DNA of 64,000 nucleotides from Bradyrhizobium ottawaense (GTDB lineage Bacteria; Pseudomonadota; Alphaproteobacteria; Rhizobiales; Xanthobacteraceae): contig NZ_CP029425.2 of the NCBI RefSeq assembly GCF_002278135.3, positions 7,850,001-7,914,000 on the forward strand. Direction: 5' to 3'. Under the pieces are notes generated by a model. The model was not told where the DNA came from. It saw only the letters and a list, made by a program, of their open reading frames with translations, and ran no database searches. The first letter of the stretch is position 1. The number at the start of each line of letters is the position of its first letter. Below, in pieces: positions 25,198 through 62,557 of this stretch. The translations under genes were made by a program, and so were the position numbers.

Positions 25198-25230
25198 TGT
25201 TGCGCTCCAGAGGTCACAATCGTGAGCATG

Positions 25231-26442: not shown

Positions 26443-26479
26443 GATATCTCCAAACGACATTGCGCTATCTTGCGACGGG

Positions 26480-26968: not shown

Positions 26969-26969
26969 T

Positions 26970-27839: not shown

Positions 27840-27841
27840 GA

Positions 27842-28290: not shown

Positions 28291-28294
28291 GAAT

Positions 28295-33023: not shown

Positions 33024-35207
<2,184 letters not shown>

Positions 35208-35232
35208 CTGAGTGTTCGCGTTCGATTGTCGA

Positions 35233-37119: not shown

Positions 37120-37220
37120 CTAATCCCAAGTGACGCCGAGCTGACCAACATGACTTCTGCCTGGAAGTAACCGGAATTCCTGCAGACAGGCTGCCCATCT
37201 CAGGTCGCCTCTTGCGGTGT

Positions 37221-39236
<2,016 letters not shown>

Positions 39237-39244
39237 AGCTCTTC

Positions 39245-40774: not shown

Positions 40775-40791
40775 CGATTGGGCCAACTGAT

Positions 40792-42504: not shown

Positions 42505-42512
42505 CTGCGTCC

Positions 42513-43793: not shown

Positions 43794-43810
43794 GCGCGCT
43801 CCGCCCTCTC

Positions 43811-46489: not shown

Positions 46490-46860
46490 GCGTCGGGCTC
46501 CGAGAAAGCCCGCACTTGGTAGCATCGGGTGCTATGGCACGTGCTGCTGAATTCGGCCGCGTTCCGACGGATTGCCCGGCTCCGGCGGGACGCGGAGGCT
46601 CGCATCGCAGCATTCTCTGCTGTTGGTTTAATCGGGCGAGTGATCGAGCCGCCGGCCGCCTGACAGGTGCTCCCGCTTGGTCACGGCGCAGCATGCCGCA
46701 TCGCTCAGCGCTCACGCCGCAGTAGCGGGCATCTTGTCGCAGATCAGCGAACTCGACGGCTCGCCGCGACTAGTGACCTGACCTTTCAAAACAGCTAACC
46801 TCGGCTAGCAGCAGGATCTGCATCAAGGCTTGACTGACTTGACGAATTGGCAGGATTGAA
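46490..46860. other. Divergent promoter region, aceE and AraC
   Basis: 371 bp with no supported gene. TAGCA-5-TGCTA (46520-46534) is an inverted motif 31 bp before the aceE start. GCTA repeats also occur near 46795-46810. Either could be bound by the adjacent AraC protein. The remainder is GC-rich without clear structure. Confidence 0.45.
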
Positions 46861-47793: not shown

Positions 47794-49017
47794 TCAGCGT
47801 TTGCTGTAAGGCGCAAGCGGATACTCGAGCGACGCTTCCGCAATGGCCTTTGGAGCCACCACCCGAGGCCTGCCTTTCAAACCCTGCAGCATCACCATCG
47901 AACAGTGGATGTTCTGGCCGGTCTCGTCGAACTTGGTGTTGTCGCCGTACATCAGGATCGGCTTCATGTCGGTCTTCTTGAGCGCGCCGTGAATCGCCGC
48001 GGACTCCGGCGAAGCCGCCCGCGTCACGGCGTCTGCGACGATCTGCACCGCCTCGAACGCGCAGCCCGCATTGGCATCGAACCAGTCGTTCGGGTAGTCG
48101 GCCGCGAACATCTTCATGATCTTGTCGGTCTCGGCGCCCTTGGGATTGAGCCACAACGCCGACAGAACCGGACCGTCACCATACTTTCCGAGCGCGTCGT
48201 GATACGCCTTGTCGGACACGCCGTTGGAGTTGGGCGAAAACACCATCTTCGGGTCCCAGCCCTGCTTGATGCATTCGCGCGCGATCATGATCGCGTCGTT
48301 GACGCGCGTGACCGAGATCAAAGCATCGGCACCCGACGCTTTCGCCTTGGCAACTTCCACCGACAGATCCTTGGCCTTCTCGTCATAGGCAACGTGCTGC
48401 GCGATCTTGAGCGGAACATCCACTTCCTTCCACGCCTGATCGATGCTGGCCGCCGTCGACTGCCCCATCGTGTTGTTGAGATGGAGAACGACGGCGCTGC
48501 TCGGCGGATCCTTCAGCGTGCCGAGCACGGACTTCAGCTCGGCCAACGATTGCCGCACGATGGTCAGCGACGTGGGGTAATAGCGGAACACCTGGGTGAA
48601 GCCCTGTGAAGTTACCTGGGTGGCGCTCGCGATGTGGACCACCATCGGCACCTTGGCGGCCTCGCAGGCCTGCAGCGCCGAAATGGTGGCACCGGAATCC
48701 CACGCGCCGATCAGCACGGTGCAGCCCTGCCGGATCAGGCTCTCGGCGGCAATCCGGCCGTTCTCCGGACGGCTTTGCGTATCGGCGTGAACGATCTCGA
48801 TGCCGAGGCCGAACTTCTCACGCGCGAATTTGGCGCCGAGATCGATGCCGCGCACGCAGGCCTGACCGGGAAACGCCAGCACGCCGCTGCTGGGCATGAT
48901 CGCTCCGACTTTCACTTTCGTGTTCGCCGCAAACGATGGCCTTGATACCAGGCCTACCGCAATTCCCAATCCGCTTCCGACAATCGTCCGCCGCGTGATT
49001 CCGCTTCGCTTGGTCAT
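47794..49017 (-). CDS. ABC transporter substrate-binding protein (Liv type)
   Basis: 407 residues. A probable Tat-type signal peptide (MTKRSGITRRTIVGSGLGIA...SFA) ends near residue 31, followed by the family opening VKVGAIMPSSGVLAFPGQAC. Segments such as LIGAWDSGATISALQACEAA and FSPNSNGVSDKAYHDAL belong to the Peripla_BP_6 fold. It is last in the LLM-hydratase-ligase-binding protein unit and probably serves the LivHMGF-type transporter at 54.7-58.0 kb. A substrate containing a carboxylate is suggested by the ligase beside it. Confidence 0.88.
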   Translation of the reverse strand: MTKRSGITRRTIVGSGLGIAVGLVSRPSFAANTKVKVGAIMPSSGVLAFPGQACVRGIDLGAKFAREKFGLGIEIVHADTQSRPENGRIAAESLIRQGCTVLIGAWDSGATISALQACEAAKVPMVVHIASATQVTSQGFTQVFRYYPTSLTIVRQSLAELKSVLGTLKDPPSSAVVLHLNNTMGQSTAASIDQAWKEVDVPLKIAQHVAYDEKAKDLSVEVAKAKASGADALISVTRVNDAIMIARECIKQGWDPKMVFSPNSNGVSDKAYHDALGKYGDGPVLSALWLNPKGAETDKIMKMFAADYPNDWFDANAGCAFEAVQIVADAVTRAASPESAAIHGALKKTDMKPILMYGDNTKFDETGQNIHCSMVMLQGLKGRPRVVAPKAIAEASLEYPLAPYSKR

Positions 49018-49094
49018 CTCGATGTCCTGTTGCTGAAGGAGTGAAATCTTATCTCGACTGTTAGCTTCGTACGTTTTGGGACCGACCGCCGACC

Positions 49095-50960
49095 TCAAAG
49101 GCCCATCTCGGCCTTGATCAATTCTTCCTCGGTTTCGTCGTAGAGCGACGCGATCAGCGACTGATAGCGCTCGTTGATCTGCTTGCGACGCTTCTTCCGC
49201 GTCGGCGTCATCACGCCGTTCTCGAGCGACAGCTCCTCTGGCAGAATGCGGAACGCCTTGATCTGCTCGGCTCGCGCCAGCCTTCCGTTGGCCTTGCCGA
49301 TCTCCGCCTCGATCAGCCGGTTGACGATCTCGGAGCCTGCCAGGTCCGCGTAACTCGCGATCTTGTCGTCGCGCGACTTCGCCCAGTCCATTGTGGCGGT
49401 GGCATCCACTTCGATCAGGGCGGTGAGATATTTTCGCCCCTCGCCGATCACAGCCGCCTCGGAGATGAACGGGCTGTGCCTCAGCTCGTTTTCGATCTGA
49501 GTCGGGCTGATCGATTTGCCGTTCGACGTGTTGATGATCTCCTTCTTCCGGTCGACAAGCTTGAAGGTTCCTTCCGGCGACACTTCGACGATGTCGCCGG
49601 TGTAGAGCCAGCCGTCGCGAAGCGCCGCTTTCGTCTCGTCCGGCTTGTTCCAATAGCCCGCGAACAATCCCGGTCCACGGACGATCATCTCGCCGTCCTG
49701 GAGCACGGCGGTTTCCCAGGCCGGATCCGGCAGCGGGACCCCGACGTTGCCGGCCTTCGGCCACTCCGCCATCTGCACCAGATTGGCACCGACCAGTTCG
49801 GTCTGGCCGTAGCACTCCTTGAGCTGCAAGCCCCACAACTGCCACAGCGACATCAGCTCGGACGGCATCGCCGCCGACGAGGTGAACGCGACCTTCAGTT
49901 CGTCGAAACCGACCTCCGCGAGCAGCGGCAGGAACACTTGCTCGCGGCAGGCCGCGAACAGTTTCGAGACGAAGGCATCCTCGTGGCCGCGCTGACGGTC
50001 TTCGAGCGCCCTGCGCGCGATCGTCACGGCAAGCGTGTAGTTCTGATCTCCCGCTTCACCGGCGGGATGCACCTTGCTGAGGATCTGTGTCGCAAAGCGC
50101 TGGTAGAACCGCGGCGGCGCCATATAGTAGGTCGGCTTCACCTCTTTGATCGTCTGGGCGAAGTCCGCGGTCGTCTCGCCGAAATATGGAACTGCGTCGG
50201 CGATCAGCGGCAACGTGGTCGCCTGCCCGCGCGCCACAGTGTGCGACATCGGCAAATGCACGACCACCCGGTGTTCCTCTTCGCGCATACTGGGGCCGAA
50301 CAGGGTGATGCAATGAACGCCGGCGAGAATGGAAAGGTGCGTCAGCATGGCGCCTTTGGGGTTTCCGGTCGTCCCGGACGTATAGCCGATGCTGACGACA
50401 TCGGACGCCTTTGCTGTCGCGCTCTCCTTCTGCAGATAGTCATGCGCATCGACATCGTGTGCTCCAACAAAGTCGGCCAGCGACTTGATCAACGCCGAGG
50501 CCTCGCCGGTCCAATCCGGGTCGAGCACGATGATGCCGCGGAGCTGCTCGGCCCGACCGGAGGCGAGCACGATGCGAAGCTGCGGCTCCCCGCCGACGAA
50601 CGCGAACTTCGCGCCTGAATCCGTGAAGCAGTAAGCCACTTCTTCGGGTGACGAGGTGAAGTAAACGCCCACCATGACGCCGCCGGCGCACATCGTGGCC
50701 ATGTCGGCGATCAGCCATTCCTCGGACGAATCGCCCATGATCGCGACCCGATCGCCGCGCTCGAGACCAGCACGCCGCAGCGCGCTGGCCAGGTTCACGA
50801 CACGCTGCGCATATGCGCCCCACGTCATGGCGGTCCAGGCGCCGTGACGCTTTTGTTGCAAGGCGATCTTGTCGGGCCGCTCCGCGAGTCGCGCGGCCAA
50901 AAGCTGCACGACGGTCGTATCCGCCAACTGGGCGCCGGATGTCATCTCAGCGACGTTCAT
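49095..50960 (-). CDS. Long-chain-type acyl-CoA synthetase
   Basis: 621 residues of the FadD15-like ANL group. The P-loop is GYTSGTTGNPKGAMLTH near 205. The adenine motif is KECYGQTELVGANL, and the hinge region WLYTGDIVEVSPEGTFKLVD, then RKKEIINTSNGKSISPTQIE is that of long-chain enzymes. The gene follows the enoyl-CoA hydratase by 1 bp (TGAGATG) and precedes the binding-protein gene by 77 bp. It probably activates the pathway's acid as a CoA thioester. The long-chain label reflects family, not a proven substrate. The ATG at 50960 is chosen over 51005. Confidence 0.88.
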   Translation of the reverse strand: MNVAEMTSGAQLADTTVVQLLAARLAERPDKIALQQKRHGAWTAMTWGAYAQRVVNLASALRRAGLERGDRVAIMGDSSEEWLIADMATMCAGGVMVGVYFTSSPEEVAYCFTDSGAKFAFVGGEPQLRIVLASGRAEQLRGIIVLDPDWTGEASALIKSLADFVGAHDVDAHDYLQKESATAKASDVVSIGYTSGTTGNPKGAMLTHLSILAGVHCITLFGPSMREEEHRVVVHLPMSHTVARGQATTLPLIADAVPYFGETTADFAQTIKEVKPTYYMAPPRFYQRFATQILSKVHPAGEAGDQNYTLAVTIARRALEDRQRGHEDAFVSKLFAACREQVFLPLLAEVGFDELKVAFTSSAAMPSELMSLWQLWGLQLKECYGQTELVGANLVQMAEWPKAGNVGVPLPDPAWETAVLQDGEMIVRGPGLFAGYWNKPDETKAALRDGWLYTGDIVEVSPEGTFKLVDRKKEIINTSNGKSISPTQIENELRHSPFISEAAVIGEGRKYLTALIEVDATATMDWAKSRDDKIASYADLAGSEIVNRLIEAEIGKANGRLARAEQIKAFRILPEELSLENGVMTPTRKKRRKQINERYQSLIASLYDETEEELIKAEMGL

Positions 50961-50961
50961 C

Positions 50962-51741
50962 TCAGCGCTCCGCGAAACGCTTGCGCTTGGCCGCGAATGC
51001 GGCAACCGCCTCGGCCCGCTCGGGCGACTTGAACGTCAACATCTCCAGCGCCGCAGAGGTGTCGAGCAGCAGGTGGGCGTACTGCTTGATGATCTTGTTG
51101 ACGCTGTACTTGGTCCACACGATCGATTCCTTCGGCCCGCTTGCCAGCAGTTCGGCGTATTCGATCGCGGCATCGAGAACGTTGCCGTCTGCGACCACCT
51201 CGTTGATCATACCGATAGCAGCCGCTTTCTCGGTGGAGATGAATTCGCCGGTCATCAGATAGTGCTTCGCGCGTACCGGCCCCATCAGCAGCGGCCAGAT
51301 CACCGCGCCGCCATCGCCCGCGACGACGCCGGCATTGACATGCGTGTCGGCGAAACGGGCTGTCGAGCTCGCATAGATCACGTCGCAGAACAGCGCGAGC
51401 GTGGCACCCAGGCCGACCGCGACACCGTTGACGGCCGCGACGATCGGCACTTCGACTTCCAGCATGTTGCGGATGAGGTGGCGACCGCTGCGCGTCGGGG
51501 ACGGCAGCGTTCCCTTATCCAGCGACTTCTGATCGCCACCAGAGCAAAATCCGCGGCCCGCACCGGTGAGAACGATCGCGTTGACAGAACTGTCGTGATC
51601 CAGCTTGACGAAGACGTCTTCGAGCTCCTCGTGCATCTCCCAGTTGATCGCGTTGAGGATCTCCGGGCGGTTCATCGTGACGATCGCGACGCCAGTGGCG
51701 CGCTGCTCGACGATCAGGTACTTGTAGCCGTATTGCGACAT
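50962..51741 (-). CDS. Enoyl-CoA hydratase/isomerase (first copy)
   Basis: 259 residues of the crotonase fold. The oxyanion-hole segments are GAGRGFCSGGDQKS and AVNGVAVGLGATLALFCDVI. The usual catalytic glutamate positions are partly changed: HVNAGVVAGDGGAVIW has Val/Ala where E. coli-type hydratases have Glu. It may therefore act as an isomerase, hydrolase or ring-cleaving crotonase. It lies between the LLM monooxygenase (16 bp) and the ligase (1 bp), forming a tight operon. The ATG at 51741 is preferred to 51750. Confidence 0.85.
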   Translation of the reverse strand: MSQYGYKYLIVEQRATGVAIVTMNRPEILNAINWEMHEELEDVFVKLDHDSSVNAIVLTGAGRGFCSGGDQKSLDKGTLPSPTRSGRHLIRNMLEVEVPIVAAVNGVAVGLGATLALFCDVIYASSTARFADTHVNAGVVAGDGGAVIWPLLMGPVRAKHYLMTGEFISTEKAAAIGMINEVVADGNVLDAAIEYAELLASGPKESIVWTKYSVNKIIKQYAHLLLDTSAALEMLTFKSPERAEAVAAFAAKRKRFAER

Positions 51742-51757
51742 TGATTTCACCGTTCGA

Positions 51758-52891
51758 TTACTGCTTCTGGGTCCGCATCAGCCGGATCTGCCCGAGAATC
51801 TCCTCGGTCGGCCGCACGACGTTGTTTCCGTCGTTGAAATGCGGGATGACGTAGCGACCGACCATGTCGATCGCCTCCATGATCTTTTCGTGCGGGACGG
51901 AGTCCATGTGCAGCAGCACCTCGTCGATACCCATGGCCTCGAACTTCTCGATCTGACGAATGACCGTATCGGGGCTGCCGCACACCGTCGTGGCCGACTC
52001 GTTGACCAGATAGTCCCAGTCGTTGGCGGCGCGCTCCATCGACGGCACGCTCTCCCCCATGTATTTGTAGTCGTCGGCAATCGCCGCGAGACGCGGATAG
52101 GCATCGGTCGAGATCTTGGCATAGTGCATTAGCGGGCCGGCATAATCCGCCTTGGCCTGCTCGTCCGTTTTCCCGATGCCGATGAACAGCGGAATGCCGA
52201 TACGCGGACGCTGCAGCGGTCCCTCCGCGTCGCACTTCCAGTTTTTTTGATAGGCGTCGATCAGCTTCTGCTGAGCTTCCCAGCCCTGATAGATGTTGCT
52301 GCTCATCACGGCGAAGCCCTGCGAGGCCGCCCAGAGATGACTGCGCTCGCTGGTCGCCGCGATCCCGATCACCGGATGCGGCTTCTGCAGCGGCTTCGGA
52401 ACCAGCTGGCGCGGAGGGATCTGGTAGTACTTGCCGTCAAACGTGAAAATGTCCTGGCGCATCGCCGTTTTCAGCAGCGCCAGCCCTTCTTCCATCTGCG
52501 CCAGCGTTTCGTTCGGATCGACGTTGAACGCCCGCATCGCGATGGTGGTGTTGGCGCGGCCGCCGTAGAATTCCATGCGGCCGTTGGACAGGATGTCGGT
52601 CACGGCAAGCCGCTCGGCCGAACGCAAGGCGTGGTTGATGCGCTGCGGCATCAGCGTCACCGCCGCGCGCAGCTTGACGCGCGACGTCACCGCGGCCAGA
52701 TAGCCGAACACCACTTCGGGCGCCGAGCTCGAGATCCCGCCCAGTGCCACGTGCTGCTCGGAGAGCGCGACGCAGTCGAAGCCGACCTTCTCGGCCAGAC
52801 GGACTTCGTCGACCAGTTCGTGAAGCCTGCGCGAGTAACTGTGGCCGACCTGGGTTTCCTGTTCAGACCAGAACCCAAACGTAAGTGCCAT
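51758..52891 (-). CDS. LLM-class flavin-dependent monooxygenase
   Basis: 377 residues of the bacterial luciferase-like fold. It begins LTFGFWSEQETQVGHSYSRR and has VALSEQHVALGGISSSAPEV, in the style of alkanal monooxygenases. PHPVIGIAATSERSHLWAAS and the C-terminal ATTVCGSPDTVIRQIEKF, the usual F420/FMN-binding closure, follow. Such enzymes use reduced FMN delivered by a separate reductase. A flavin reductase gene of the right type lies at 58150, and a ribB-type gene at 60494. It should insert oxygen into a carbonyl or heteroatom substrate that I cannot identify. It is first in its unit, with an inverted motif 100 bp upstream. Confidence 0.85.
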   Translation of the reverse strand: MALTFGFWSEQETQVGHSYSRRLHELVDEVRLAEKVGFDCVALSEQHVALGGISSSAPEVVFGYLAAVTSRVKLRAAVTLMPQRINHALRSAERLAVTDILSNGRMEFYGGRANTTIAMRAFNVDPNETLAQMEEGLALLKTAMRQDIFTFDGKYYQIPPRQLVPKPLQKPHPVIGIAATSERSHLWAASQGFAVMSSNIYQGWEAQQKLIDAYQKNWKCDAEGPLQRPRIGIPLFIGIGKTDEQAKADYAGPLMHYAKISTDAYPRLAAIADDYKYMGESVPSMERAANDWDYLVNESATTVCGSPDTVIRQIEKFEAMGIDEVLLHMDSVPHEKIMEAIDMVGRYVIPHFNDGNNVVRPTEEILGQIRLMRTQKQ

Positions 52892-52990
52892 GTCTCAATC
52901 CTTTTAGCTTGCGAGATGGCACAGGGTTTCATAGGCGTGGCGATATTTTCGCCCGAAAGCCGCGTTGCGTAGTAACGCTTTCCGAATTTT

Positions 52991-53003
52991 ATGCTGTCAG
53001 CAT
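52991..53003. promoter_or_regulatory. Inverted motif upstream of the LLM operon
   Basis: ATGCTG-T-CAGCAT is a perfect 6+1+6 inverted repeat in the gap before the LLM gene. The same half-sites (CAGCAT-TTT-ATGCTG) recur at 59213-59227 before the other catabolic unit, each preceded or followed by an ATTTTATGCTGT stretch. A common regulator is implied, perhaps the local Lrp/AsnC or AraC protein. Confidence 0.55.
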
Positions 53004-53058
53004 TCGCAACATGGCAGACGCCCCGGGAAGCTTCGCCACGCAGCGGACGGGCTGATCG

Positions 53059-53850
53059 TCAACGGCGGGCGATGGCGGCTCCGGCCTCGCTATCGAAGGT
53101 CTTGATCAGCAACTCGGCGACCGCCGCGAGGCACGCTTCGCCGATGGCGTAGCTCGAGCCGATCGGACTTCCGATCACGCCGTTCTGCGAAACCGATCGG
53201 ATGCCGTTCTTCCACATCAGTTCGAGATCAGCCTCCGACAAGCCGCCAAGATGGCCCACCTCGAAGCGGTCCGGTCTGACGCTGTCGGGCCTAATGACCA
53301 TCATCAGCGACGTCTCGGCGATGTCGGCGTGGCCGCCGACGGCCAACACGTCTCCTCCGGCTTCGCGCACCGCATCGCGCCACGTGTCGATCCATTTCGT
53401 CGAGTCGAAGAACGCCAGGATCTCGACATCCGAGGGGACGGCCTCGCGCAAGCGACCGAGCATGTCCTTCAGGACCGGAAAATTGCCGATGTGACCCGAG
53501 TGAATCAGGATACGCTTGAAGCCGTGCCGCGCCAGGCTTGTGCAATAATCGACACAAATCGCTTCCAGCGTCCCCGGCCGTAGCGAGATCGTACCCGCGA
53601 ATGGCAGATGGTGAGACGAGCAGCCGACCGTGATGGTCGGCGCCACCAGCGTGTTGCCGCGGCTGCGCGCGATCCGCTCGGCCAGAGCATCGGCATGATC
53701 CGCATCCATGCCCAAAGACAAATGCGGCCCATGCTGCTCGACGGCCCCCAGCGGGATCACTACCGTCGTGCACCCATCGGCCAGCGCCGCGGCGACTTCC
53801 TCGTGGCTCATCTGCTCCAGATAGATCTGATCGGGATATCCGCGCGTCAT
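53059..53850 (-). CDS. Creatininase-family hydrolase
   Basis: 263 residues. The metal-binding family signature is VIPLGAVEQHGPHLSLGMDADHA (Glu, His, Asp), with a further His region in ILIHSGHIGNFPVL and VGGHADIAETSLMM. Members hydrolyse cyclic or linear amides (creatinine, formamides) with zinc or manganese. It follows the second enoyl-CoA hydratase by 4 bp. An amide or lactam step in the pathway is therefore likely, though the exact substrate is unknown. The ATG at 53850 is chosen over the open frame from 53919. Confidence 0.85.
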   Translation of the reverse strand: MTRGYPDQIYLEQMSHEEVAAALADGCTTVVIPLGAVEQHGPHLSLGMDADHADALAERIARSRGNTLVAPTITVGCSSHHLPFAGTISLRPGTLEAICVDYCTSLARHGFKRILIHSGHIGNFPVLKDMLGRLREAVPSDVEILAFFDSTKWIDTWRDAVREAGGDVLAVGGHADIAETSLMMVIRPDSVRPDRFEVGHLGGLSEADLELMWKNGIRSVSQNGVIGSPIGSSYAIGEACLAAVAELLIKTFDSEAGAAIARR

Positions 53851-53854
53851 CGGC

Positions 53855-54619
53855 TCAACCCTTACTGTTCTTTGATAGAAATCTTGCACGCGCTTTGGTT
53901 GAGCTCTCGGCTGTGACATAGGCGTCGAGGTCGGCCACGGTCATTTTTTCGAGCGCCTGATCGCTCATTTGCGCGGTGAGGTTGAGCGATCGCTTGATGG
54001 CATGGAACAGCTTGCGGTCTTTCTGCCGCAACACGCCGCACACGTCTCGCGCACGGGATGCGACCTCCTCGGTCGGGACGATCTCGTTCACGGCGCCGAT
54101 CGCCACGGCGCGCTCCGCGCCGACGAGCTCGCCCCAGTACAGCAGCTCTTGCGCCGCCCGCACGCCGAGCTTCTCGACGGCCCGGCGCATGCCTTTGGTC
54201 ACCGGCAGCAGGCCATGGTTGATTTCCGGAAATCCAATCTTGCACGCCGCATCGGCCACAACATAGTCCGCATGCAGCAGAAACTCCAGGGCGCCTCCGA
54301 CCGCATAGCCGCGGACGGCGCAGACGATCGGGCCCGGATAGTTCTCCATCGCCACGAGGAGTTCGTGGAAGAACCGGATGCGCGGCCTAGCGACGTCGAT
54401 CCCGACGACTTCCTTGATGTCGCCGCCTGCGCTGAAGAAGCGGTCGCCGCTTCCGGTGAGCACGATGCCGGGCGGATTCTCGTCGTCGGCAAGGCGCCGG
54501 ATCGCCTCCAGCAACTCGACGATTAGTTGCGCATTCAGCGCATTGGCCGGCGGCCGGTTCATCGTGATCGTGACCAGGTCTTGATCACGCTCGATCAGGA
54601 GAGAAGTGGCAGTATTCAT
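53855..54619 (-). CDS. Enoyl-CoA hydratase/isomerase (second copy)
   Basis: 254 residues of the crotonase fold. Oxyanion segments are GSGDRFFSAGGDIKEVVG and AVRGYAVGGALEFLLHADYV. FPEINHGLLPVTKGMRR retains a Glu at the classical catalytic position, so hydratase or related activity is plausible. It differs clearly from the first copy at 50962, so the two probably act at separate steps. It precedes the creatininase-family gene and follows livF after 105 bp. Confidence 0.87.
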   Translation of the reverse strand: MNTATSLLIERDQDLVTITMNRPPANALNAQLIVELLEAIRRLADDENPPGIVLTGSGDRFFSAGGDIKEVVGIDVARPRIRFFHELLVAMENYPGPIVCAVRGYAVGGALEFLLHADYVVADAACKIGFPEINHGLLPVTKGMRRAVEKLGVRAAQELLYWGELVGAERAVAIGAVNEIVPTEEVASRARDVCGVLRQKDRKLFHAIKRSLNLTAQMSDQALEKMTVADLDAYVTAESSTKARARFLSKNSKG

Positions 54620-54724
54620 CAATGAGACCCAAGCGAGAGGCGGCTGCAACAGCCGGGGAGCGGTGGACCGAACGGCGGCGAGACGAGAGCCGCAACGCCC
54701 GACGCCTCGCCGAGACGGCGCGCC

Positions 54725-55444
54725 TCACAATCCCAGATAGGCGCGCTGGACATCGGGGTTCTCGAGCAGATCGCGGCTAGATCCATGCAACACCACGGAG
54801 CCGTTCTCGAGCACATAGCCGCGGCTGCTCAGAGCGAGCGACTTGGCGACATTCTGCTCGACGAGAAGGACCGTGATGCCCTGCTCGTTGAGGGATTTGA
54901 CGACGCTGAACATCACATCGGTCAGCGCCGGCGACAGTCCGATCGACGGCTCGTCGAACATCACGATTTCTGGCTTCGACATGATCGCCCGACCGATCGC
55001 CAGCATCTGTTGCTCGCCGCCGGACAGCGTGCCGGCGAGTTGGTCGCGGCGCTCGCGAAGTCGCCCGAACAGCTGATAGACGGAATCAAGCGTATTTGCC
55101 AGGTCGTGCCTGGCCCGCTTCAGCGAGCCGCCGATCAGCAGATTGTCCTCGACGGAGAGCGCACTGAAAATCTGGCGGCCCTCGGCGACCTGAGCGATGC
55201 CCATTTCGCAGATGTCCCACGGCGGTAGCCGCGAGATTTCGACTCCGTTGATCCTGACGGAACCGCGCGACGACGGCACGATCCCCGCGATTGATCGGAT
55301 CAGAGAGGTCTTGCCGGCGCCGTTGGCGCCGACCACGCAGATCAGTTCACCCTTGCCGATGCGGAGCGACACGCCGTTCAGCGCATTGGAGCCGTCATAG
55401 GCCACGCACAGGTCGTCGACTTCGAGAAGCGCGTCGTCAGGCAT
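54725..55444 (-). CDS. livF: Liv-type ABC transporter ATPase
   Basis: 239 residues. Walker A is GANGAGKTSLIRS, the signature LSGGEQQMLAIGRAI and Walker B IVMFDEPSIGLSP, all intact. The LivF-type C-terminus is LVEQNVAKSLALSSRGYVLE. It energises the importer together with LivG, LivH and LivM. Its start overlaps the livG end by 8 bp. Because livG is broken here, this may be the only working ATPase subunit encoded at the locus. Confidence 0.92.
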   Translation of the reverse strand: MPDDALLEVDDLCVAYDGSNALNGVSLRIGKGELICVVGANGAGKTSLIRSIAGIVPSSRGSVRINGVEISRLPPWDICEMGIAQVAEGRQIFSALSVEDNLLIGGSLKRARHDLANTLDSVYQLFGRLRERRDQLAGTLSGGEQQMLAIGRAIMSKPEIVMFDEPSIGLSPALTDVMFSVVKSLNEQGITVLLVEQNVAKSLALSSRGYVLENGSVVLHGSSRDLLENPDVQRAYLGL

Positions 55445-56154
55445 GGAAACCGGCTCCCAGATAACTTTCCAGCACCGCAGGATCCGCTACCACCTCTGAC
55501 GGCTTGCCCTCGGCGATCTTGGCGCCGTGGTGTAGCACCACCACGGTCGACGCCACTTCCATCACGATCCGCATCACGTGCTCGACCAGTAGGATCGTCA
55601 GTCCACCCTCGGCGAGCCGGTGCAGCACGCCGACGACGCCTGCCGCTTCGGTCGGACGCAGCCCCGCCATCACTTCGTCGAGCAGCAGCAACTTGGGGCG
55701 AGTCGAGAGCGCCTTCGCCATCTCGAGCATCTTGCGATCGGGCAACGTCAACTGATCCGTCCGGGCATTCGCCTTGCCGGCGAGCCCGACATTTTCGAGC
55801 GACTCATACGCCTTGTCCCGCGCCTCCTTGACGTTCGTCGTCCAGCTGAAGGCGCCCACCATGGCATTCTCGAGCACTGACATATCTTTCATCGGTCGGA
55901 CGATCTGGAAGGTGCGCGCAATGCCCATGCGGCACACCGCTTCGGGCGGCTCGCGCTCGAGCGAACGCCTCTCGAATAGCACCCGCCCGGCGGTCGGTCT
56001 CAGCGCCCCGGCGACGAGATTGAAGCAGGTGGTCTTGCCGGCGCCCGATAAGGGCGGTGATGCGGCCTGCCTGCAGTGAGAAGCTGACGTCATTGACCGC
56101 GACCAATCCAACGAACGCTTTGGTCAGGTTCTTCACTTCGAGCAGCGCGGTCAT
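55437..56154 (-). pseudogene. livG: Liv-type ABC ATPase gene frameshifted at Walker A
   Basis: The frame begins at the ATG at 56154, overlapping the livM stop, as MTALLEVKNLTKAFVGLVAV and LQAGRITALIG. The next bases read ATCGGGCGCCGGCAAG where GPNGAGK would need eight more (GGGCCnAAyGGCGCC). The frame then shifts. In the other frame GAGKTTCFNLVAGALRPTAG resumes and runs to the end, with TDQLTLPDRKMLEMAKAL and Walker B LLLLDEVMAGL. The eight missing bases lie inside the nucleotide-binding loop near 56046, so neither frame alone can make an active ATPase. A small deletion between short GGCG-like repeats would explain it. Confidence 0.85.
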
Positions 56155-57182
56155 TCCTCGACCTTCCGCAATTGTGAGATCCGGCCGCGCGCCGGCAGCT
56201 GGATCGCCTCGTAGAGCCGGACGATTGCCGGCCAGATGCCGTCGGGCAGAAACCACACGACCAGGATCAGCACCGCCCCGTAGGCGACGCTGTTCAGTCC
56301 GGGGAGCCCCAGGCTGTCGCCGAGCGCCCCCATGGCGTGATGCAGCGGGATCGCGGCCATCGAGCCGACCAGCGGGCCGAACGCAGTGCCCAATCCGCCG
56401 ACCACAGGGCCGATCAGTACGTCGACCGAGATCGCCATGCCCATGATCGAATCCGGAAAGATCGCACCCTGCACCAAGCCCAGCACGCCGCCGCCGACCG
56501 CGGCCGTCGCGGCCGATATCGAGACCACCAGCACCTTGTGGCGAAACGTCCGCACCCCCAGTGCGCGGGCGGCCTCTTCGTCGTCCCGCATCGCCCGCCA
56601 GACATAGCCCCAATAGGACCGCGAGATCAGCTCCGTTCCCGCGACGCCGATGGCCGCAAGCGCGAGCGCGACGAAGTAGTAGAACCGCGCGTCACCGCGC
56701 AGCATCCCGAGGTCCATCGTGCCGCTCGGCGCCTGATAGAACAGGCCCTGCATGCCGCCGACATAGTCCCACCCGCCGAACATGATCCGGGCGAATTCGG
56801 CGGCTGCGATCGTGAGCAGCGCGAAATAGATGCCACGGACCTCGAAGCGGAAGCTCAGCCACGCCAGCACCGCGCCGACGAAGCCCGCAATCACCGCGCC
56901 CAGCAGCAGACCGATCCACGGGGTGACGCCGTATTTGATGTTCAGGATCGCCACCGCATACGCACCGATTCCAACGAACAGCGCGTGACCGATGGATAGC
57001 TGCCCGCCGATCCCGAGCATCAGGTTCCACGATTGTCCCATGAAGGTGAACAACAGGACGATCGTCAGAAGTGAGATGACGTAGGCGTTGGACATGCCAC
57101 CCACCACGGCCAGGGCGGCGAAGACCAGAGCGCCGGCACCCCAACGCTTGGTGTCGCTGGCTTGATCAGATGTCCTTTGCAC
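56151..57182 (-). CDS. livM: Liv-type ABC permease
   Basis: 343 residues with about nine helices. Family marks are SWNLMLGIGGQLSIGHALFV near 50-70 and the cytoplasmic ATPase-contact loop SYWGYVWRAMRDDEEAARAL. VGGLGTAFGPLVGS follows later. It overlaps livH by 17 bp and livG by 4 bp. Paired with LivH it forms the transport channel for an organic or amino acid. Confidence 0.9.
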   Translation of the reverse strand: MQRTSDQASDTKRWGAGALVFAALAVVGGMSNAYVISLLTIVLLFTFMGQSWNLMLGIGGQLSIGHALFVGIGAYAVAILNIKYGVTPWIGLLLGAVIAGFVGAVLAWLSFRFEVRGIYFALLTIAAAEFARIMFGGWDYVGGMQGLFYQAPSGTMDLGMLRGDARFYYFVALALAAIGVAGTELISRSYWGYVWRAMRDDEEAARALGVRTFRHKVLVVSISAATAAVGGGVLGLVQGAIFPDSIMGMAISVDVLIGPVVGGLGTAFGPLVGSMAAIPLHHAMGALGDSLGLPGLNSVAYGAVLILVVWFLPDGIWPAIVRLYEAIQLPARGRISQLRKVEE

Positions 57183-58035
57183 CGAAAAACCCCCTCGGAC
57201 GGAAAATCAGGATGATGATCAGGAGCGCGTAAGGGAGTGCTGTTTTCATCGACGGCGTGAACATCAAGGCCGCGACCGCTTCGGCGACCCCGATCGTCAG
57301 GCCGCCCAGAAGAGCGCCACCGAAGCTGCCGAGACCGCCGACGATCACCGTCACGAAGGCCAGCAGCGTGAAGTCGACGGCGAGATAGGGCTGCGCATCG
57401 AACAGCGGCGAGATCAATGCGCCGGCGACGCCAGCGCAGGCGGCTCCGATGCCGAAGGTCACCGCATAGACCCGAGGGATATTCAGCCCGACCACCAGTC
57501 CGCCCAGTCGATTATTGGCGGCGCCCCGCAGCGATCGGCCGAATGCGGAGTACTTCAGATAGGCTCCCAGTGCGGCGATCAGCAGTCCGGCCGTAGCGGC
57601 CGCCTGGATGCGGGCCCAATCCAAGGTGAGCGGACCCACGCTCACGGTCTGGAAGGACAACTGAGACGCCGTCGGCCGCGGATCCGGACCGAACGACATC
57701 AGCAATACGCCGCTGAAAAGCAGTGAGAGGCCGATGAAGACGATGAACTGATAATGATGCGGCCGATTGACGAACCGCTTCACGACGAGCGTCTCTAGCA
57801 GATAGCCGAACACGAACATGACGACCGCGGCGATCGCGGCGGCTAAAACGATCGGGATGTCACAGATTTGAACGGTCCAGTATCCGATGTAGATCCCGAA
57901 CACGACCATCTCGCCATGAGCGAAATTGACCACGCGCATGACGCCGAAGATGATGGTGAGACCGAGCGCGACGAGCCCGTAAACCAGCCCGATGAGCACC
58001 CCGCCGGCGATGACATTGAGCCAGAGCGACAGCAT
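57166..58035 (-). CDS. livH: Liv-type ABC permease
   Basis: 289 residues with about eight helices. The N-terminus LNVIAGGVLIGLVYGLVALG and MRVVNFAHGEMVVFGIYIGY are hallmarks of LivH, and NNRLGGLVVGLNIPRVYAV is the ATPase-contact region. It is the first transporter gene of the unit and lies 114 bp after the flavin reductase gene. Confidence 0.92.
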   Translation of the reverse strand: MLSLWLNVIAGGVLIGLVYGLVALGLTIIFGVMRVVNFAHGEMVVFGIYIGYWTVQICDIPIVLAAAIAAVVMFVFGYLLETLVVKRFVNRPHHYQFIVFIGLSLLFSGVLLMSFGPDPRPTASQLSFQTVSVGPLTLDWARIQAAATAGLLIAALGAYLKYSAFGRSLRGAANNRLGGLVVGLNIPRVYAVTFGIGAACAGVAGALISPLFDAQPYLAVDFTLLAFVTVIVGGLGSFGGALLGGLTIGVAEAVAALMFTPSMKTALPYALLIIILIFRPRGFFGAKDI

Positions 58036-58149
58036 CAGCGACCGACCGCCGATGGATGCGCGATAGAAAGTCTTCGTCTTCCTTGCATGCTGATCGGTTC
58101 CATCTTGGCTGTAGCGGAAACGTAGCGGCGCCTGACGTCGTCCTGCGTT

Positions 58150-58695
58150 TCAGACCGCCTTTGGCGCGGCGAAACATCCGTCGATGTAGACGAGCGACTC
58201 ACATCCGGCCCTCGTGGTCTGAGCCACCACCTCTCCGGTGAAAATGGTGTGACTACTGTCGCTGTAAGCATTCACCACGCGGCAATCGAAGCTGCAGACC
58301 GCGCCGACCAGACTTGGTGCTCCGGTTTTGAGATCGCACCACAAACCGTCACCGAAGCGGATATCGCCCTTGCTGCCGTCCTGCCCGGAAAACTTGAGCG
58401 CCAGATCGCGATGCTCGACTCCTAGAATATTCCAGCAGAACGACCCACTGCTGAGAATGATGTCGTGCGCACCGGCAGATCGATTGACGCAAACCAGCAC
58501 GCTGGGCGGAGCCGCCGACAGCGAGCAGCCCGCCGTCAGTGTCAGACCATGGCGGTTCGGCGCCCGACCTGTCGTGACGATCGACACGGTGCCCGGCACG
58601 CTGCGCATCGCAGCACGGAATGCTGCGGCATCGAGTGGGCTCGTTTCGGACAGCGGCGGTGTTGCGGACGGCATGGCTACGACCCTTGGATTCAT
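58150..58695 (-). CDS. Flavin reductase (HpaC-like)
   Basis: 181 residues of the flavin_reduct family. Segments include FRAAMRSVPGTVSIVTTG, HGLTLTAGCSLSAAPPSVLV and FCWNILGVEHRDLALKFSG, which form the FMN/FAD site. It reduces free flavin with NAD(P)H for a partner monooxygenase, most likely the LLM protein encoded at 51758. The ATG at 58695 is chosen after a GAGGG site; 58674 is possible. It shares a unit with VOC upstream and livHMGF downstream. Confidence 0.87.
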   Translation of the reverse strand: MNPRVVAMPSATPPLSETSPLDAAAFRAAMRSVPGTVSIVTTGRAPNRHGLTLTAGCSLSAAPPSVLVCVNRSAGAHDIILSSGSFCWNILGVEHRDLALKFSGQDGSKGDIRFGDGLWCDLKTGAPSLVGAVCSFDCRVVNAYSDSSHTIFTGEVVAQTTRAGCESLVYIDGCFAAPKAV

Positions 58696-58764
58696 GAGAT
58701 GGATGCGCCCTCTTTGTCTGGTTGTGAGTCCGGGCATGCAGCGCTGCCCCGGTGAACGTCTGAG

Positions 58765-59118
58765 CTATCCGGCTGCTTGATAGAACTGGATGACGTTGCC
58801 GCCCGGATCCCGCACCTTCACCGCACGGCCGTGACTTTCCATGTCCCGGACCGCGCCGACTTGCGCCCCCATGGCTGCGGCACGCTCCATGGCGGCATCG
58901 AGGTCATCGACACCGAAGACAAGAACGGCATCTTGCAGCTGGTCCGAGACCGACTCCGTCGGTCCGGCGACGCAGAACGCAGCCGCATCGCTCACGAACT
59001 GTATCCACTTGCCGGGATCAGCGAAGCGCACCTTCAGACCCAGACCTTCGTAGAACTCGGCCAGGCGTCCAGGATCGTTCGCTGTCAAATAGACTTGCTT
59101 CAGTTTCACGCTCGACAT
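58765..59118 (-). CDS. VOC (glyoxalase/bleomycin resistance) family protein
   Basis: 117 residues with paired beta-alpha-beta-beta-beta modules: LKQVYLTANDPGRLAEFYEG, then ALKV and WIQFVSDAAAFCVAG in the first, and DAVLVFGVDDLDAAMERAAA, then VKVRDPGGNVIQFYQ in the second. VOC proteins include epimerases, dioxygenases and binding proteins. The metal-binding His and Glu of methylmalonyl-CoA epimerase are not present at the expected positions, so that role is unlikely. It is first in the flavin reductase-livHMGF unit. Confidence 0.8.
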   Translation of the reverse strand: MSSVKLKQVYLTANDPGRLAEFYEGLGLKVRFADPGKWIQFVSDAAAFCVAGPTESVSDQLQDAVLVFGVDDLDAAMERAAAMGAQVGAVRDMESHGRAVKVRDPGGNVIQFYQAAG

Positions 59119-59727
59119 CCAAACCGTCGCTACCCAAGTGCGATCGTGGGTGGATAGTCGCCCGAGCCTCTCAGCATTACTGCTTGAACAACGCCTGTCA
59201 CAGAAGCTTCATCAGCATTTTATGCTGTAACGACTTGTCGAGTCGCTAGATCCAACTCTGCATCCGGCCGATCTTTGCCATTTTCTGGTTGACGAGGTGG
59301 GCGTCGTTGCTGCCGAACCTTTTGTCTCGCGCAACGCCCGCGGCGTGGTCAGCGACGTGGGACCGAAGCCACACGCGACGACAGGCGGTTGTACGAAACA
59401 GGGCAGTTCTCGACATCGAGCTCTGCTGCACGTCCCGTCAAGTGACACGGGGAGCCAATCGATGGAGCGGCGGGCATTACATCTTGACCGAATCCGTGGA
59501 TCAACGTCGGCCTGCATATCGCATAGGCAAAAAATGTATCGGAAGTAGGCAACTAACCTTTTGATCGCAATGCACAATGCGAAGGTTGACGGTTTTTCGA
59601 TACAAATCGACGATTTGTCGAAATCCCACAAGCGCAATTGCGGTTAGCTTTTACCACGCGATTGTCATCACCCCGCAAACGACGGTGATACGCGCCGCAG
59701 AAGACTGCCATACTTGGGAGATACGCG
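59119..59727. other. 609-bp intergenic region before the VOC and Lrp/AsnC genes
   Basis: No gene is supported; the longest open frames have no family features. It should contain promoters for the leftward VOC unit and the rightward Lrp/AsnC gene. The inverted motif at 59213-59227 lies near the left promoter. CGAC-GATTT-GTCG (around 59609-59621) lies about 110 bp before the AsnC gene and may be its own site. Confidence 0.5.
59213..59227. promoter_or_regulatory. Inverted motif upstream of the VOC-reductase-transporter unit
   Basis: CAGCAT-TTT-ATGCTG has the same half-sites as the motif before the LLM operon, here with a 3-base centre. It lies 95 bp upstream of the VOC start codon. Confidence 0.55.
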
Positions 59728-60351
59728 ATGTCGACAACCTCTCTCGACAGAATAGATATCAAGATCCTCAACGAGCTCCAGCAGAATGCGAGCTTGACCA
59801 ATGTCGAGCTCGCATCACGCGTCAATCTTTCGCCGTCGCCGTGTCTGGCACGCGTCAGAACACTCGAAAAACTCGGCGTGATCGATCGACGGATCGCCCT
59901 TCTCGATCCCGCCGTGCTCGGCATTGGTGTAACGGCTTTCATCCAGATCAAGCTGGAAAAGCAGGTCCAGACGTCCCTCGAGAATTTCACCCGATCCATC
60001 GACCGGCTGGCCCAGGTAATGGAATGCTATCTCATGACCGGTGAGAGCGACTACATGCTCCGCGTCATGGCGGCCGACATCGAAGATCTCGAAGACCTGA
60101 TTGTCAACAAACTATCCCGCATTCCCGGCGTCAGCAGCATTCGATCAAATCTGGCCCTCAAGCGCATTTCGCACAAGACCGTGCTGCCGATCGACGCCAA
60201 TCGGCCGGTCACCGTCAAGGCTTGCGCCACCCCCTCGCGCCCTCTGGAGCGCTCACCAAGACCCCGATACGACCCAACCGGTCCTTTGCTGTCCGATGCG
60301 CCGATCGGGCTCGACACCAATCGTCCCAGCTACAGCGTGGAAAGGCTATGA
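59728..60351 (+). CDS. Lrp/AsnC family regulator with extended C-terminus
   Basis: 207 residues. The N-terminal helix-turn-helix is LDRIDIKILNELQQNASLTN, then ELASRVNLSPSPCLARVRTL. An AsnC effector domain follows (about 70-155) with MTGESDYMLRVMAADIEDLE. Family members usually stop near residue 160; here about 45 extra residues rich in Pro, Arg and Ser follow and look disordered. A GGGAG site precedes the ATG. It probably controls the surrounding catabolic units and lies 142 bp before the ribB-type gene. Confidence 0.88.
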   Translation: MSTTSLDRIDIKILNELQQNASLTNVELASRVNLSPSPCLARVRTLEKLGVIDRRIALLDPAVLGIGVTAFIQIKLEKQVQTSLENFTRSIDRLAQVMECYLMTGESDYMLRVMAADIEDLEDLIVNKLSRIPGVSSIRSNLALKRISHKTVLPIDANRPVTVKACATPSRPLERSPRPRYDPTGPLLSDAPIGLDTNRPSYSVERL

Positions 60352-60493
60352 GGCGCCCCGCCATGGGCTCCGGCCAGTTGGCAATAATGGTGAAGTTAAG
60401 ATCGGCAGAGTGCTCGAGCGGCGCTGCGAGCCTGACAATCCGCACACGACCCAACGCGAGCACCCGTCGGTTCCAGCGAGCAGAGCGACCGAG

Positions 60494-61570
60494 ATGACGG
60501 GATCGATCGAAGCGGCCCTGCAGGCGCTCGCCGACGGCGAAATCGTCGTGGTCACCGACGACGACGATCGCGAGGGCGAAGGGGACCTCGTCGTTGCCGC
60601 CTCGCGGTGTACGGCTGCGAAGATGGCCTTCATCATTCGCCATACATCGGGAATCGTCTGCGCTCCGATTACCCTCGAAGACGCGAGACGCCTGCGGCTT
60701 GACCCGATGGTTGTCAACAACGACTCGGCTCACACCACGGCGTTCACCGTGTCAGTGGACTACCGGCCGGATAACGGTACGGGCATCTCGGCCGAAGAGC
60801 GGGCCTCGTGCTGCCGTGCACTCGCCAACCCCAACGTCGGCGCCGGCGATTTTTGCCGGCCGGGACACGTTTTCCCGCTGATCGCAAAAGAAGGTGGCGT
60901 ACTCATGCGCTCGGGTCACACCGAGGCCGCCGTCGACCTGTGCAGACTGGCAGGTCTCGAGCCGGTCGGTGTCATCAGCGAACTGATGAACGACGATGGC
61001 TCGGTGATGAAGGGTCCGCAAGTCGCGGCGTTCGCCGACAAGCACAAGCTGAAACAGGTCACCATCGCAGACCTCATCAGCTTCCGGCAGGCCCGCGAGA
61101 CGCTGATCGAGCGCGTCTCGAGCGTCACGGCGGAGAGCTCGATCGGCCCGCTCCAGGGCTATTCGTATCGCTCGCCGTTCGACCCCATTCATCACGTCGC
61201 CTATATCTACGGAGAACTGGGCGACGGCACCAACGTCCTCACGCGCTTCTATAAACCCAACATCCTGCGCGATTTGTTCTCGGGTCAGGAACAGGCCAAG
61301 ATGAACGTCATTCTGCAACGCTTCAAGGATAATGGCAGCGGCGTGCTCGTCTATCTGCGCGACGGCGCGGCGGGCGTTCCGCCTGCGCCGCTAGGCCCGA
61401 TCAGTTCGCGCGAAGACGACCGTAATCGGCAATGGCGCGAGATCGGTGTCGGCGCCCAGATCCTGCGGGATCTCAAGATCAGCTCCATCCGTCACCTCAC
61501 GTCGTCGACGCATCACTTCAAGGGACTGTCAGGCTTCGGCATCGAGATCGTCCGAAACGAAGCGCTCTAA
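60494..61570 (+). CDS. ribB: 3,4-dihydroxy-2-butanone 4-phosphate synthase, RibBX type
   Basis: 358 residues. The RibB domain (1-200) contains VVTDDDDREGEGDLVVAASR (acidic metal site), PDNGTGISAEERA and VLMRSGHTEAAVDLCRLAGL. It makes the four-carbon unit of riboflavin from ribulose 5-phosphate. The C-terminal domain is GTP-cyclohydrolase-II-like but lacks the zinc-binding CxC cysteines and RC-DC motif, as in RibBX proteins of alphaproteobacteria, so it is unlikely to make the pterin precursor. The frame is open from 60101, but the ATG at 60494 matches the family start. Its location beside flavin-dependent genes suggests dedicated flavin supply. Its 3' end overlaps the converging AraC gene by 42 bp. 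Confidence 0.88.
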   Translation: MTGSIEAALQALADGEIVVVTDDDDREGEGDLVVAASRCTAAKMAFIIRHTSGIVCAPITLEDARRLRLDPMVVNNDSAHTTAFTVSVDYRPDNGTGISAEERASCCRALANPNVGAGDFCRPGHVFPLIAKEGGVLMRSGHTEAAVDLCRLAGLEPVGVISELMNDDGSVMKGPQVAAFADKHKLKQVTIADLISFRQARETLIERVSSVTAESSIGPLQGYSYRSPFDPIHHVAYIYGELGDGTNVLTRFYKPNILRDLFSGQEQAKMNVILQRFKDNGSGVLVYLRDGAAGVPPAPLGPISSREDDRNRQWREIGVGAQILRDLKISSIRHLTSSTHHFKGLSGFGIEIVRNEAL

Positions 61571-62467: not shown

Positions 62468-62557
62468 TGTCATCCTTTAGCAATTAATTGGCAGAATAAC
62501 GAAATTCTCTCGACGCAGCAACGCCTATGGTCTCCGTGCTTCACGGACGATCACATC

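Follow-up and report, generated by a model that had tools for sequence, protein, structure and literature searches.

Nicotinate is degraded by the nic pathway, in which the pyridine ring is hydroxylated before a dioxygenase acts on it. In the catabolism of trigonelline by Acinetobacter, TgnAB, a flavin-dependent luciferase-like monooxygenase (LLM) and its reductase, reportedly open the pyridinium ring, and no coenzyme A (CoA) step is known. Arthrobacter sp. 68b carries on its plasmid p2MP an LLM that we take to be the pyridine monooxygenase PyrA. The degradation of fusaric acid as studied by Vinacour and colleagues is said to involve a flavin monooxygenase and propionyl-CoA metabolism through the methylcitrate cycle. 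That study (Vinacour et al. 2023, doi 10.1128/aem.00630-23), on the fusaric acid degradation pathways of Burkholderia ambifaria T16, is cited in an excerpt of PMC13400623, and TgnB is described as a luciferase-like trigonelline monooxygenase in an excerpt of PMC11354265. Here, we have analysed a 64,000-nucleotide stretch of DNA, referred to below as the window, which comprises positions 7850001-7914000 of an 8.59-Mb single-contig genome and whose closest named relatives are Bradyrhizobium. We focus on a gene cluster at 47794-61570 of the window, which encodes an LLM, a flavin reductase, a CoA ligase, two crotonases (ECH1 and ECH2) and a creatininase-family hydrolase. Judged from its gene content, this region would form the central part of a block of 44 kb that serves the catabolism of a pyridine-2-carboxylic acid, the best candidates being 5-alkylpicolinates such as fusaric acid, a reading to which we assign a probability only slightly above one half (about 0.52). 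Fusaric acid itself appears to be the likeliest substrate.

An earlier note on this DNA had described a catabolic pathway located between two paralogous AraC regulators. All the genes that it named are found at 47794-61570, and the Pfam cut-offs were passed for the ten proteins scanned. The two regulators, which flank the cluster at 46861-47721 (forward strand) and 61529-62473 (reverse strand; AraC2 below), both match PF12833 and are 49% identical to each other across 255 residues. The six enzymes listed above are all encoded on the reverse strand. The LLM (51758-52891), the putative pyridine-ring-opening oxygenase, matches Bac_luciferase PF00296 (E 4.6e-46) across residues 4-323 of 377. It has the make-up of a two-component LLM in that a separate flavin reductase (58150-58737; PF01613, E 1.8e-32) is present, which would be its source of reduced flavin mononucleotide (FMNH2). 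The AMP-forming acyl-CoA ligase (49095-50963; AMP-binding and AMP-binding_C_3 domains) is a candidate for the activation of the pyridine carboxylate. ECH1 (50962-51750), from which the hydratase glutamates are absent, is a putative C-C hydrolase, and ECH2 (53855-54649) has kept both of them. The creatininase-family metal hydrolase (53059-53919; PF02633, E 4.5e-64) may act as a deformylase/amidase of the ring-opened N-formyl product.

The genes of the six-gene core constitute a real unit, which recurs on a plasmid of Streptomyces as well as in Alpha- and Betaproteobacteria. Of the 265 genomes examined in the genus, 42 contain the LLM (E <=1e-80), and the creatininase-family hydrolase (E <=1e-60) is present in the identical 42, where it lies within 6.2 kb of the LLM at all 48 LLM places. 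The distance between the two genes is 0.9-1.4 kb at the 38 window-type places (LLM at least 80% identical) and 3.2-6.2 kb at the 10 sister-type places (LLM 41-44%). In a phylum-wide sample of 398 genomes, the LLM (E <=1e-70) was found only in the window's own genome, and it is therefore rare overall. A wider comparison was made of 48 related loci (L038-L085; LLM at least 66% identical), 17 more (L086-L102, at most 33%) being excluded. These loci span Bradyrhizobium, Rhodopseudomonas, Tardiphaga, Afipia, Mesorhizobium, Azospirillum, Tistrella, Pararhodobacter, Sphingomonas, Sphingosinicella, Croceicoccus and metagenome-assembled genomes; L045 and L046 belong to Rhodopseudomonas palustris. Genes were counted at chosen identity thresholds (RibB 28%, reductase 35%, ECH2 38%, others 45-60%) in flanks of at most 10 kb, and the absences are in part edge effects. 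The earlier note had proposed as a check the co-occurrence of the LLM, the creatininase and both crotonases. In this comparison, ECH1 and the hydrolase are present at all 48 loci, as is the CoA ligase, and ECH2 at 46, the stretch stopping at the hydrolase in L079 and L081, so that the co-conservation of a catabolic pathway is borne out. The flavin reductase is present at 45 loci, an AraC match (at least 45%) at all of them, and the six enzymes occur together at 43. The Lrp regulator and the substrate-binding protein were each counted at 34 loci, LivF, LivH and the VOC protein each at 33, and the RibB-type gene at 25. Because of these counts, we consider the six enzymes to be the core, and the genes for transport and flavin synthesis to be accessory.

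Of 24 plasmid records, eight were examined (H2, H7, H9, H12, H14, H15, H19 and H24). In Burkholderia cepacia ATCC 25416 and in Paraburkholderia caledonica, the cluster is plasmid-borne (LLM 75-77%) and has the same core order; the identities of the LLM, ECH1, hydrolase and CoA ligase on the Burkholderia plasmids range over about 50-80%. On both plasmids, the genes for the E1, E2 and E3 components of a 2-oxoacid dehydrogenase complex adjoin the cluster, and genes for Lrp, RibB, a second acyl-CoA synthetase, AraC, ECH2, hydrolase, LLM, ECH1, ligase and flavin reductase are present; the E1 gene of P. caledonica was detected by tblastn. A plasmid of Streptomyces sp. SAT1 encodes the hydrolase, the LLM, ECH1-type and ECH2-type crotonases, the flavin reductase and the ligase at 34-50% identity.

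The placement of the LLM provides a link with pyridines. Its clade and the sister clade join the LLM of plasmid p2MP with a support of 97/94, apart from seven paralogues of the genome. The p2MP record contains two LLM places; a flavin reductase gene adjoins the LLM gene, and a riboflavin kinase gene lies ~6.5 kb away, which independently suggests that an LLM of this kind may have genes for flavin supply close by. Of the 26 NCBIfam models matched by the LLM of the window, 25 were shown, and in none of these does its score reach the cut-off. Assignment to the alkanesulfonate, dimethylsulfone and other named LLM families was rejected on its scores, which are far under the NCBIfam cut-offs.

The two crotonases differ in their active sites. 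ECH2 keeps the hydratase glutamates E122 and E142, as expected of an enoyl-CoA hydratase. In ECH1, T117 and H137 stand at these positions, and a plain hydratase role was set aside because both glutamates are missing. Its residues H40, D135, H137, D146 and E236 are invariant in all 13 rows of an alignment hand-picked from the loci; a further ECH1 set includes, via BLAST, a different crotonase, L066_15. In an excerpt of PMC3584854, the residues H43, D141, H144, D153 and E243 are given for the Anabaena beta-diketone hydrolase 2j5s, and the Mycobacterium avium crotonase 3q1t, which matches 2j5s at D153, H144, E243 and H43, is judged to be a non-hydratase. By the residue numbers in that excerpt, the H-D spacing of 9 and the D-E spacing of 90 in ECH1 are the same as in 2j5s, and ECH1, with both glutamates lost, possesses the H/H/D/E set of a crotonase-type beta-diketone hydrolase. 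The second-best PDB match of ECH1 is 3q1t; overall, ECH1 is nearer to the EchA15-type crotonases. Its residues 1-106 match residues 109-214 of another beta-diketone hydrolase, the 6-oxocamphor hydrolase 1szo, and the H and D would, if this match is ungapped, fall on residues 145 and 154, which presumably are catalytic. A Streptomyces relative of ECH1 keeps H137, D146 and E236, whereas H40 is replaced by F and D135 by E. The predicted structure of ECH1 has a mean predicted local distance difference test score (pLDDT) of 59.7, with residues 135-168 below 50, and is too poor to check the geometry. As for the creatininase-family hydrolase, it scores 103.4 against the cut-off of 235 for creatininase (TIGR04448) and 142.8 against that of 172 for MftE (TIGR03964); functions in creatinine or mycofactocin metabolism were rejected because both scores are below the cut-off.

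Sister clusters suggest what ECH1 may be for. In those of Pseudonocardia and Arthrobacter sulfonylureivorans, ECH1 and the creatininase-like gene were not found in the stretches examined, and an amidase, an aldehyde dehydrogenase and a Rid protein are encoded instead. An unsubstituted carbon at the site of ring cleavage would yield an aldehyde, a substrate for a dehydrogenase, whereas an alkylated carbon would yield a ketone, which would call for a C-C hydrolase. As other enzymes take the place of the creatininase-like enzyme and ECH1 in the sister clusters, the gene content would, if this is true, predict the substitution of the ring. Two actinobacterial plasmid modules (L106 and L158) have the arrangement LLM-ECH2-ligase-amidase-aldehyde dehydrogenase-Rid protein plus a flavin reductase, and that of L106 is flanked by IS3. 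Within the genus, the sister clusters L146, L147 and L136 have an LLM of 42-44% identity yet an ECH1 of 75-83%; the creatininase-like protein of L146 and L147 is ~50% identical and the AraC protein of L147 81%, as in a parallel pathway that shares one enzyme closely.

The boundaries 47794-61570 given in the earlier note prove to be too narrow, since the window is collinear over 44 kb (18790-63183) with genomes G008 (97.8% identity) and G150 (97.4%); G260 shares 37227-61802 only. On the reverse strand, the genes run on through E1, E2, E3, both subunits of propionyl-CoA carboxylase (PCC) and both subunits of methylmalonyl-CoA mutase (MCM) to position 33024. E1 (43811-46525) is a homodimeric 2-oxoacid dehydrogenase component of the MdeB type: it scores 1535.7 bits with TIGR03186 (cut-off 1408.3) and only 1398.7 with the aceE model, although the cut-off of the latter is passed too. 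TIGR03186 is described by NCBI as alpha-ketoglutarate dehydrogenase, and a Burkholderia relative of E1 has been given the gene symbol mdeB. We take MdeB to act on 2-oxobutyrate; a literature search on this activity of MdeB found no paper. The E2 acyltransferase (42513-43823; AceF type) scores 531.6 bits with TIGR01348, slightly below the cut-off of 552.1, and the E3 dihydrolipoyl dehydrogenase (40792-42606) passes that of TIGR01350. The carboxyltransferase or beta subunit of PCC (39245-40828) has an mmdA-type best NCBIfam match below the cut-off and is assigned by context, and the alpha subunit (37221-39236) matches biotin carboxylases, its specificity for propionyl-CoA likewise being assigned by context. 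The small subunit of MCM (35233-37119) matches TIGR00642 below the cut-off (E 9.2e-121). The large subunit (33024-35276) is the second copy in the genome, 96% identical to the other (G000:C1:5826352-5828523), in which the match contains one stop. E1 also has a further genomic copy (56%), as does RibB (a second family match). The MCM copy and the PCC genes (33024-40828) are apparently carried by the catabolic block.

Further along, an operon of the nicotinate type (21097-31446, reverse strand, with MarR on the forward strand) encodes a major facilitator superfamily (MFS) transporter, NicX, an alpha/beta hydrolase, an isochorismatase-type amidase, a FAD monooxygenase, a three-subunit molybdenum hydroxylase and MarR. 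NicX (22561-23619) matches the 2,5-dihydroxypyridine dioxygenase 7cn3 (E 5.7e-83). This operon stands beside the LLM cluster in the window, in G150, G046, G008, G036 and G037, and at one of the two copies in G146. In L083, MarR and two molybdenum subunits of the operon are visible up to the end of the stretch, and the sister cluster of G250 adjoins MarR and the large molybdenum subunit, again to the stretch end; G263 and the second G146 copy have only weak pieces of it. In the window, NicX lies outside the LLM core. On the other side, next to AraC2, is the N-terminal part of a gene for a pump of the fusaric acid resistance family (FUSC; 62540-63183, forward strand; PF04632, E 1e-68, positions 2-179 of 660), which is the better of two FUSC matches in the genome. 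FUSC also stands beside AraC2 in G150, G046, G008 and G037, and a match to HlyD comes after it in these four genomes. In Azospirillum oryzae, FUSC-DUF1656-HlyD lie upstream of the operon, next to the relative of AraC2, and FUSC is within the stretch in L072, L074, L075 and L077, that is, in four of the eight loci L071-L078.

Based on this gene content, the following pathway can be proposed. The acid would be taken in by the Liv importer, and excess exported by the FUSC-type pump, and the CoA ligase would convert the acid to pyridine-2-carbonyl-CoA. The flavin reductase would supply FMNH2, partly from the dedicated RibB, and the LLM would oxygenate the ring and open it beside the nitrogen, so that an N-formyl enamide would arise in which the alkylated carbon has become a ketone. 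The creatininase-family enzyme would then take off formate, and hydrolysis of the enamine would give ammonia and a 2-oxo group. Next, ECH1 would cut the C-C bond beside the ketone with the CoA dienolate as leaving group, producing an alkanoate (valerate in the case of fusaric acid) and a C4 unit that would become 2-oxobutyrate; ECH2 may act as a normal hydratase en route or in beta-oxidation. Finally, the MdeB-type complex would generate propionyl-CoA, which PCC and MCM would convert to succinyl-CoA. The release of 2-oxobutyrate and an alkanoate in this scheme for a 5-alkylpicolinate would fit the presence of MdeB, PCC and MCM. The sequences themselves show the gene content, its co-conservation, the residue sets, the family scores and the placement of the LLM. 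The acid that is degraded, the CoA ester as the substrate of the oxygenase, the order of oxygenation, deformylation and C-C cleavage, and the substrates of the dehydrogenase complex and PCC are what we infer from the genes. In this outline, the earlier suggestion of an N-heterocyclic acid that is oxygenated by reduced flavin, activated with CoA and hydrolysed at an amide finds support in the gene content.

Several points weigh against a pathway for fusaric acid or another 5-alkylpicolinate. All enzyme functions discussed here are proposed from sequence. The LLM is only 30% identical to that of p2MP, and the outgroups of the LLM tree were the seven genome paralogues, some of them long-branched, with TgnB, NtaA and DszA left out. 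In Rhodococcus pyridinivorans SB3094 (LLM 32%), neither a ligase nor a crotonase is annotated in the stretch near the LLM, and the ligase of the actinobacterial sister clusters is of a different type, nearer to ACS2. The propionyl-CoA genes are not constant: E1 is present at 17 of the 48 related loci. For 19 copies in Bradyrhizobium, longer flanks were read (~20 kb, in one case on one side only); eight of these copies have E1 (at least 80%) nearby, five an MCM of at least 90% and two an MCM of 60%, and 12 have no MCM. The NicX operon was not found in the flanks of G260, G192, G084, G118, G239, G238, G056, G141, G113 and G095, nor in those of the sister-type G018; since most flanks are 20 kb and the distance between LLM and NicX in the window is 28 kb, only in G260 and G084 (40 kb) can the absence be taken as final. 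Every NicX linkage is in one genus, and the cases are therefore not independent. It should also be noted that FUSC proteins export other aromatic acids too. Finally, for the fusaric-acid-degrading Burkholderia sp. IMCC1007, the excerpted text of its genome paper (PMC10293998) proposes fusC and nic genes, not the LLM cluster, as the route.

The last point also bears on a reading in which the same enzymes serve another pyridine acid (picolinate, nicotinate, isonicotinate or some other), the link with FUSC being incidental and fusaric acid, if used, being perhaps degraded through the adjoining nic-type operon. The placement of the LLM and the NicX neighbourhood indicate pyridines in general, and picolinate would by the same scheme give 2-oxobutyrate and formate. 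We nevertheless consider this reading unlikely, because a C-C hydrolase-type crotonase would be needed mainly when the opened carbon is alkylated, and hence a ketone; the Pseudonocardia and A. sulfonylureivorans clusters, which have no ECH1 in the stretch, possess the aldehyde dehydrogenase and Rid protein in its place. In addition, nicotinate already is served by its own operon next door. Another view is that one catabolic island holds, side by side and without relation to each other, the LLM cluster, the NicX operon and the propionyl-CoA genes, the pathway consisting of the LLM, ligase, crotonases, hydrolase and reductase only. The absence of the NicX and propionyl-CoA genes around many copies speaks for such an arrangement, as does the situation in G118 and G263, where PCC and MCM lie on the other side of the cluster at 90-96% identity, as expected of housekeeping copies. 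On the other hand, E1, MCM and RibB occur in this block as second genomic copies, in an order shared with G008 and G150, and E1, E2 and E3 adjoin the cluster on the two Burkholderiales plasmids despite different surroundings there; we regard the view of unrelated neighbours as unlikely. The broader proposal of the earlier note, in which oxygenation and hydrolysis act on an acid other than a pyridine, such as a lactam, cyclic imide or terpenoid, has in its favour that LLM enzymes also use ketones, sulfonates and amines, that the related 6-oxocamphor hydrolase acts in camphor breakdown and that creatininase opens a lactam-like ring, but we regard it as very unlikely, given that the LLM clusters with the pyridine-plasmid LLM and not with the other LLMs of the genome, that NicX is a neighbour in several genomes, and that the 2-oxoacid dehydrogenase, PCC and MCM genes, which the note had missed, argue against lactams, imides and terpenoids as first choice. 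The indole-acetate (iac/iad) pathways were considered as well and provisionally set aside.

With respect to the accessory genes, the Liv-type importer on the reverse strand comprises a periplasmic substrate-binding protein (47794-49017; PF13458, E 2.5e-42; start chosen by inspection), LivF (54725-55444), LivG (55437-56613), LivM (56151-57182) and LivH (57166-58035), LivF, LivM and LivH being assigned by sequence and synteny. The reading frame of the LivG ATPase is interrupted at ~56046, in the Walker A region: the low part is in one frame and the high part in another, whose open frame enters LivM. An open LivG with the motif is present in 11 of 14 scanned stretches of relatives, the other three (L109, L111 and L113) being adjoining stretches of genomes already counted. 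In the region 62540-63961, the FUSC gene ends at 63183, the same point where synteny ends, and a gene for a MobA/VirD2-like relaxase is found on the opposite strand. Uptake and export may thus be impaired in this strain, or the LivG break may be an assembly error. Loci without Liv genes include examples that carry TRAP, MFS, DUF1302 or TonB-receptor genes. The Liv importer claimed earlier is present, but it is exchangeable among loci and its LivG is broken here.

The RibB-type protein (60494-61570, forward strand) has a domain of 3,4-dihydroxy-2-butanone 4-phosphate synthase (E 6.7e-79) and a C-terminal RibA-like domain. The site of GTP cyclohydrolase II has zinc cysteines, as a bifunctional RibBA would require; this C-terminal domain has none in 23 of 24 aligned proteins, including that of the window, and a single one in L081. 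As its RibA half is free of cysteines, the protein is RibB with a degenerate GTP-cyclohydrolase-II-like domain. Of the claim that the pathway has its own flavin supply, the part that stands is that RibB is a second genomic copy; its occurrence at only 25 of the 48 loci and the lack of the RibA cysteines tell against the rest. A VOC family protein (58765-59118, reverse strand; PF00903, E 3.4e-10) and a Lrp/AsnC regulator (59728-60351, forward strand; PF01037 and PF13412), the latter left out of the earlier gene list, complete the cluster. Elsewhere in the block, a methyl-accepting chemotaxis protein with a Cache domain (19182-20888) at its edge is a candidate sensor of pyridine acids. The NicD-like alpha/beta hydrolase gene (23594-24638) seems, by eye, to be split across two frames. 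A C-terminal fragment of a second dihydrolipoyl dehydrogenase lies at 32326-32901, and the segment 31488-32578 has an 86% copy past the FUSC side in G008 and G150. Neither a tRNA nor, at the gathering score, any Rfam match was found in the window, and a tRNA-borne island and control by an FMN riboswitch were rejected.

If the proposed pathway is correct, genes to break down a phytotoxin of Fusarium, or a close relative of it, would be carried by many bacteria of soils and plants (Bradyrhizobium, Rhodopseudomonas, Azospirillum and Burkholderia). The breakdown would depend on a flavin oxygenase and CoA, in contrast to nicotinate and picolinate, which are degraded via hydroxylation. The pathway would also assign testable roles to two enzymes, a beta-diketone-hydrolase-type crotonase that uses a CoA ester and a member of the creatininase family that is not engaged in creatinine metabolism, and provide targets for biocontrol and pyridine bioremediation. 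More tentatively, and as something we would not yet bet on, there may be a general CoA-dependent mode of opening pyridine carboxylates in Pseudomonadota and Actinomycetota: the LLM would cleave the pyridine-carbonyl-CoA, the creatininase-family enzyme would deformylate the product, and the beta-diketone-hydrolase-type crotonase would free the alkyl part to leave 2-oxobutyrate, while sister clusters with amidase, aldehyde dehydrogenase and RidA would serve pyridines whose cleaved carbon carries no alkyl group.

How does this system relate to those described before? No paper describing this gene set was found in a literature search of titles and the starts of abstracts. The opinion in the earlier note that the cluster matches no known pathway is nonetheless probably too strong, in view of the published fusaric acid genes of B. 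ambifaria T16 and of the presence of the cluster on Burkholderia and Paraburkholderia plasmids. The nicotinate nic genes adjoin the cluster of the window without being part of the LLM core. The resemblance to TgnAB, by description only, consists of the LLM and the reductase, to which the window adds a CoA ligase. Plasmid p2MP shares an LLM of the same clade, a flavin reductase and a nearby flavin-cofactor gene, but no CoA ligase, crotonase or creatininase-like gene is annotated in its 17-kb stretch (L105), which does contain an amidohydrolase and a succinate-semialdehyde dehydrogenase; the cluster of the window has neither, and in this respect differs from the 68b pathway. ECH1 has the H/D/H/D/E set of the Anabaena enzyme 2j5s as excerpted, although the latter is described there as coenzyme-A-independent (PMC3584854) and ECH1 sits together with a CoA ligase. 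In comparison with B. ambifaria T16, the window has a Liv importer, and propionyl-CoA would be passed on to the carboxylase and mutase and not to the methylcitrate cycle. The cluster is probably homologous to the published Burkholderia fusaric acid genes. If the T16 genes are orthologous, the type of pathway has already been described, and the cluster would be a further case of it, distinguished by its Liv importer and by ending in a carboxylase and a mutase. In summary, we propose with moderate confidence that the cluster belongs to the two-component LLM systems that open the pyridine ring.

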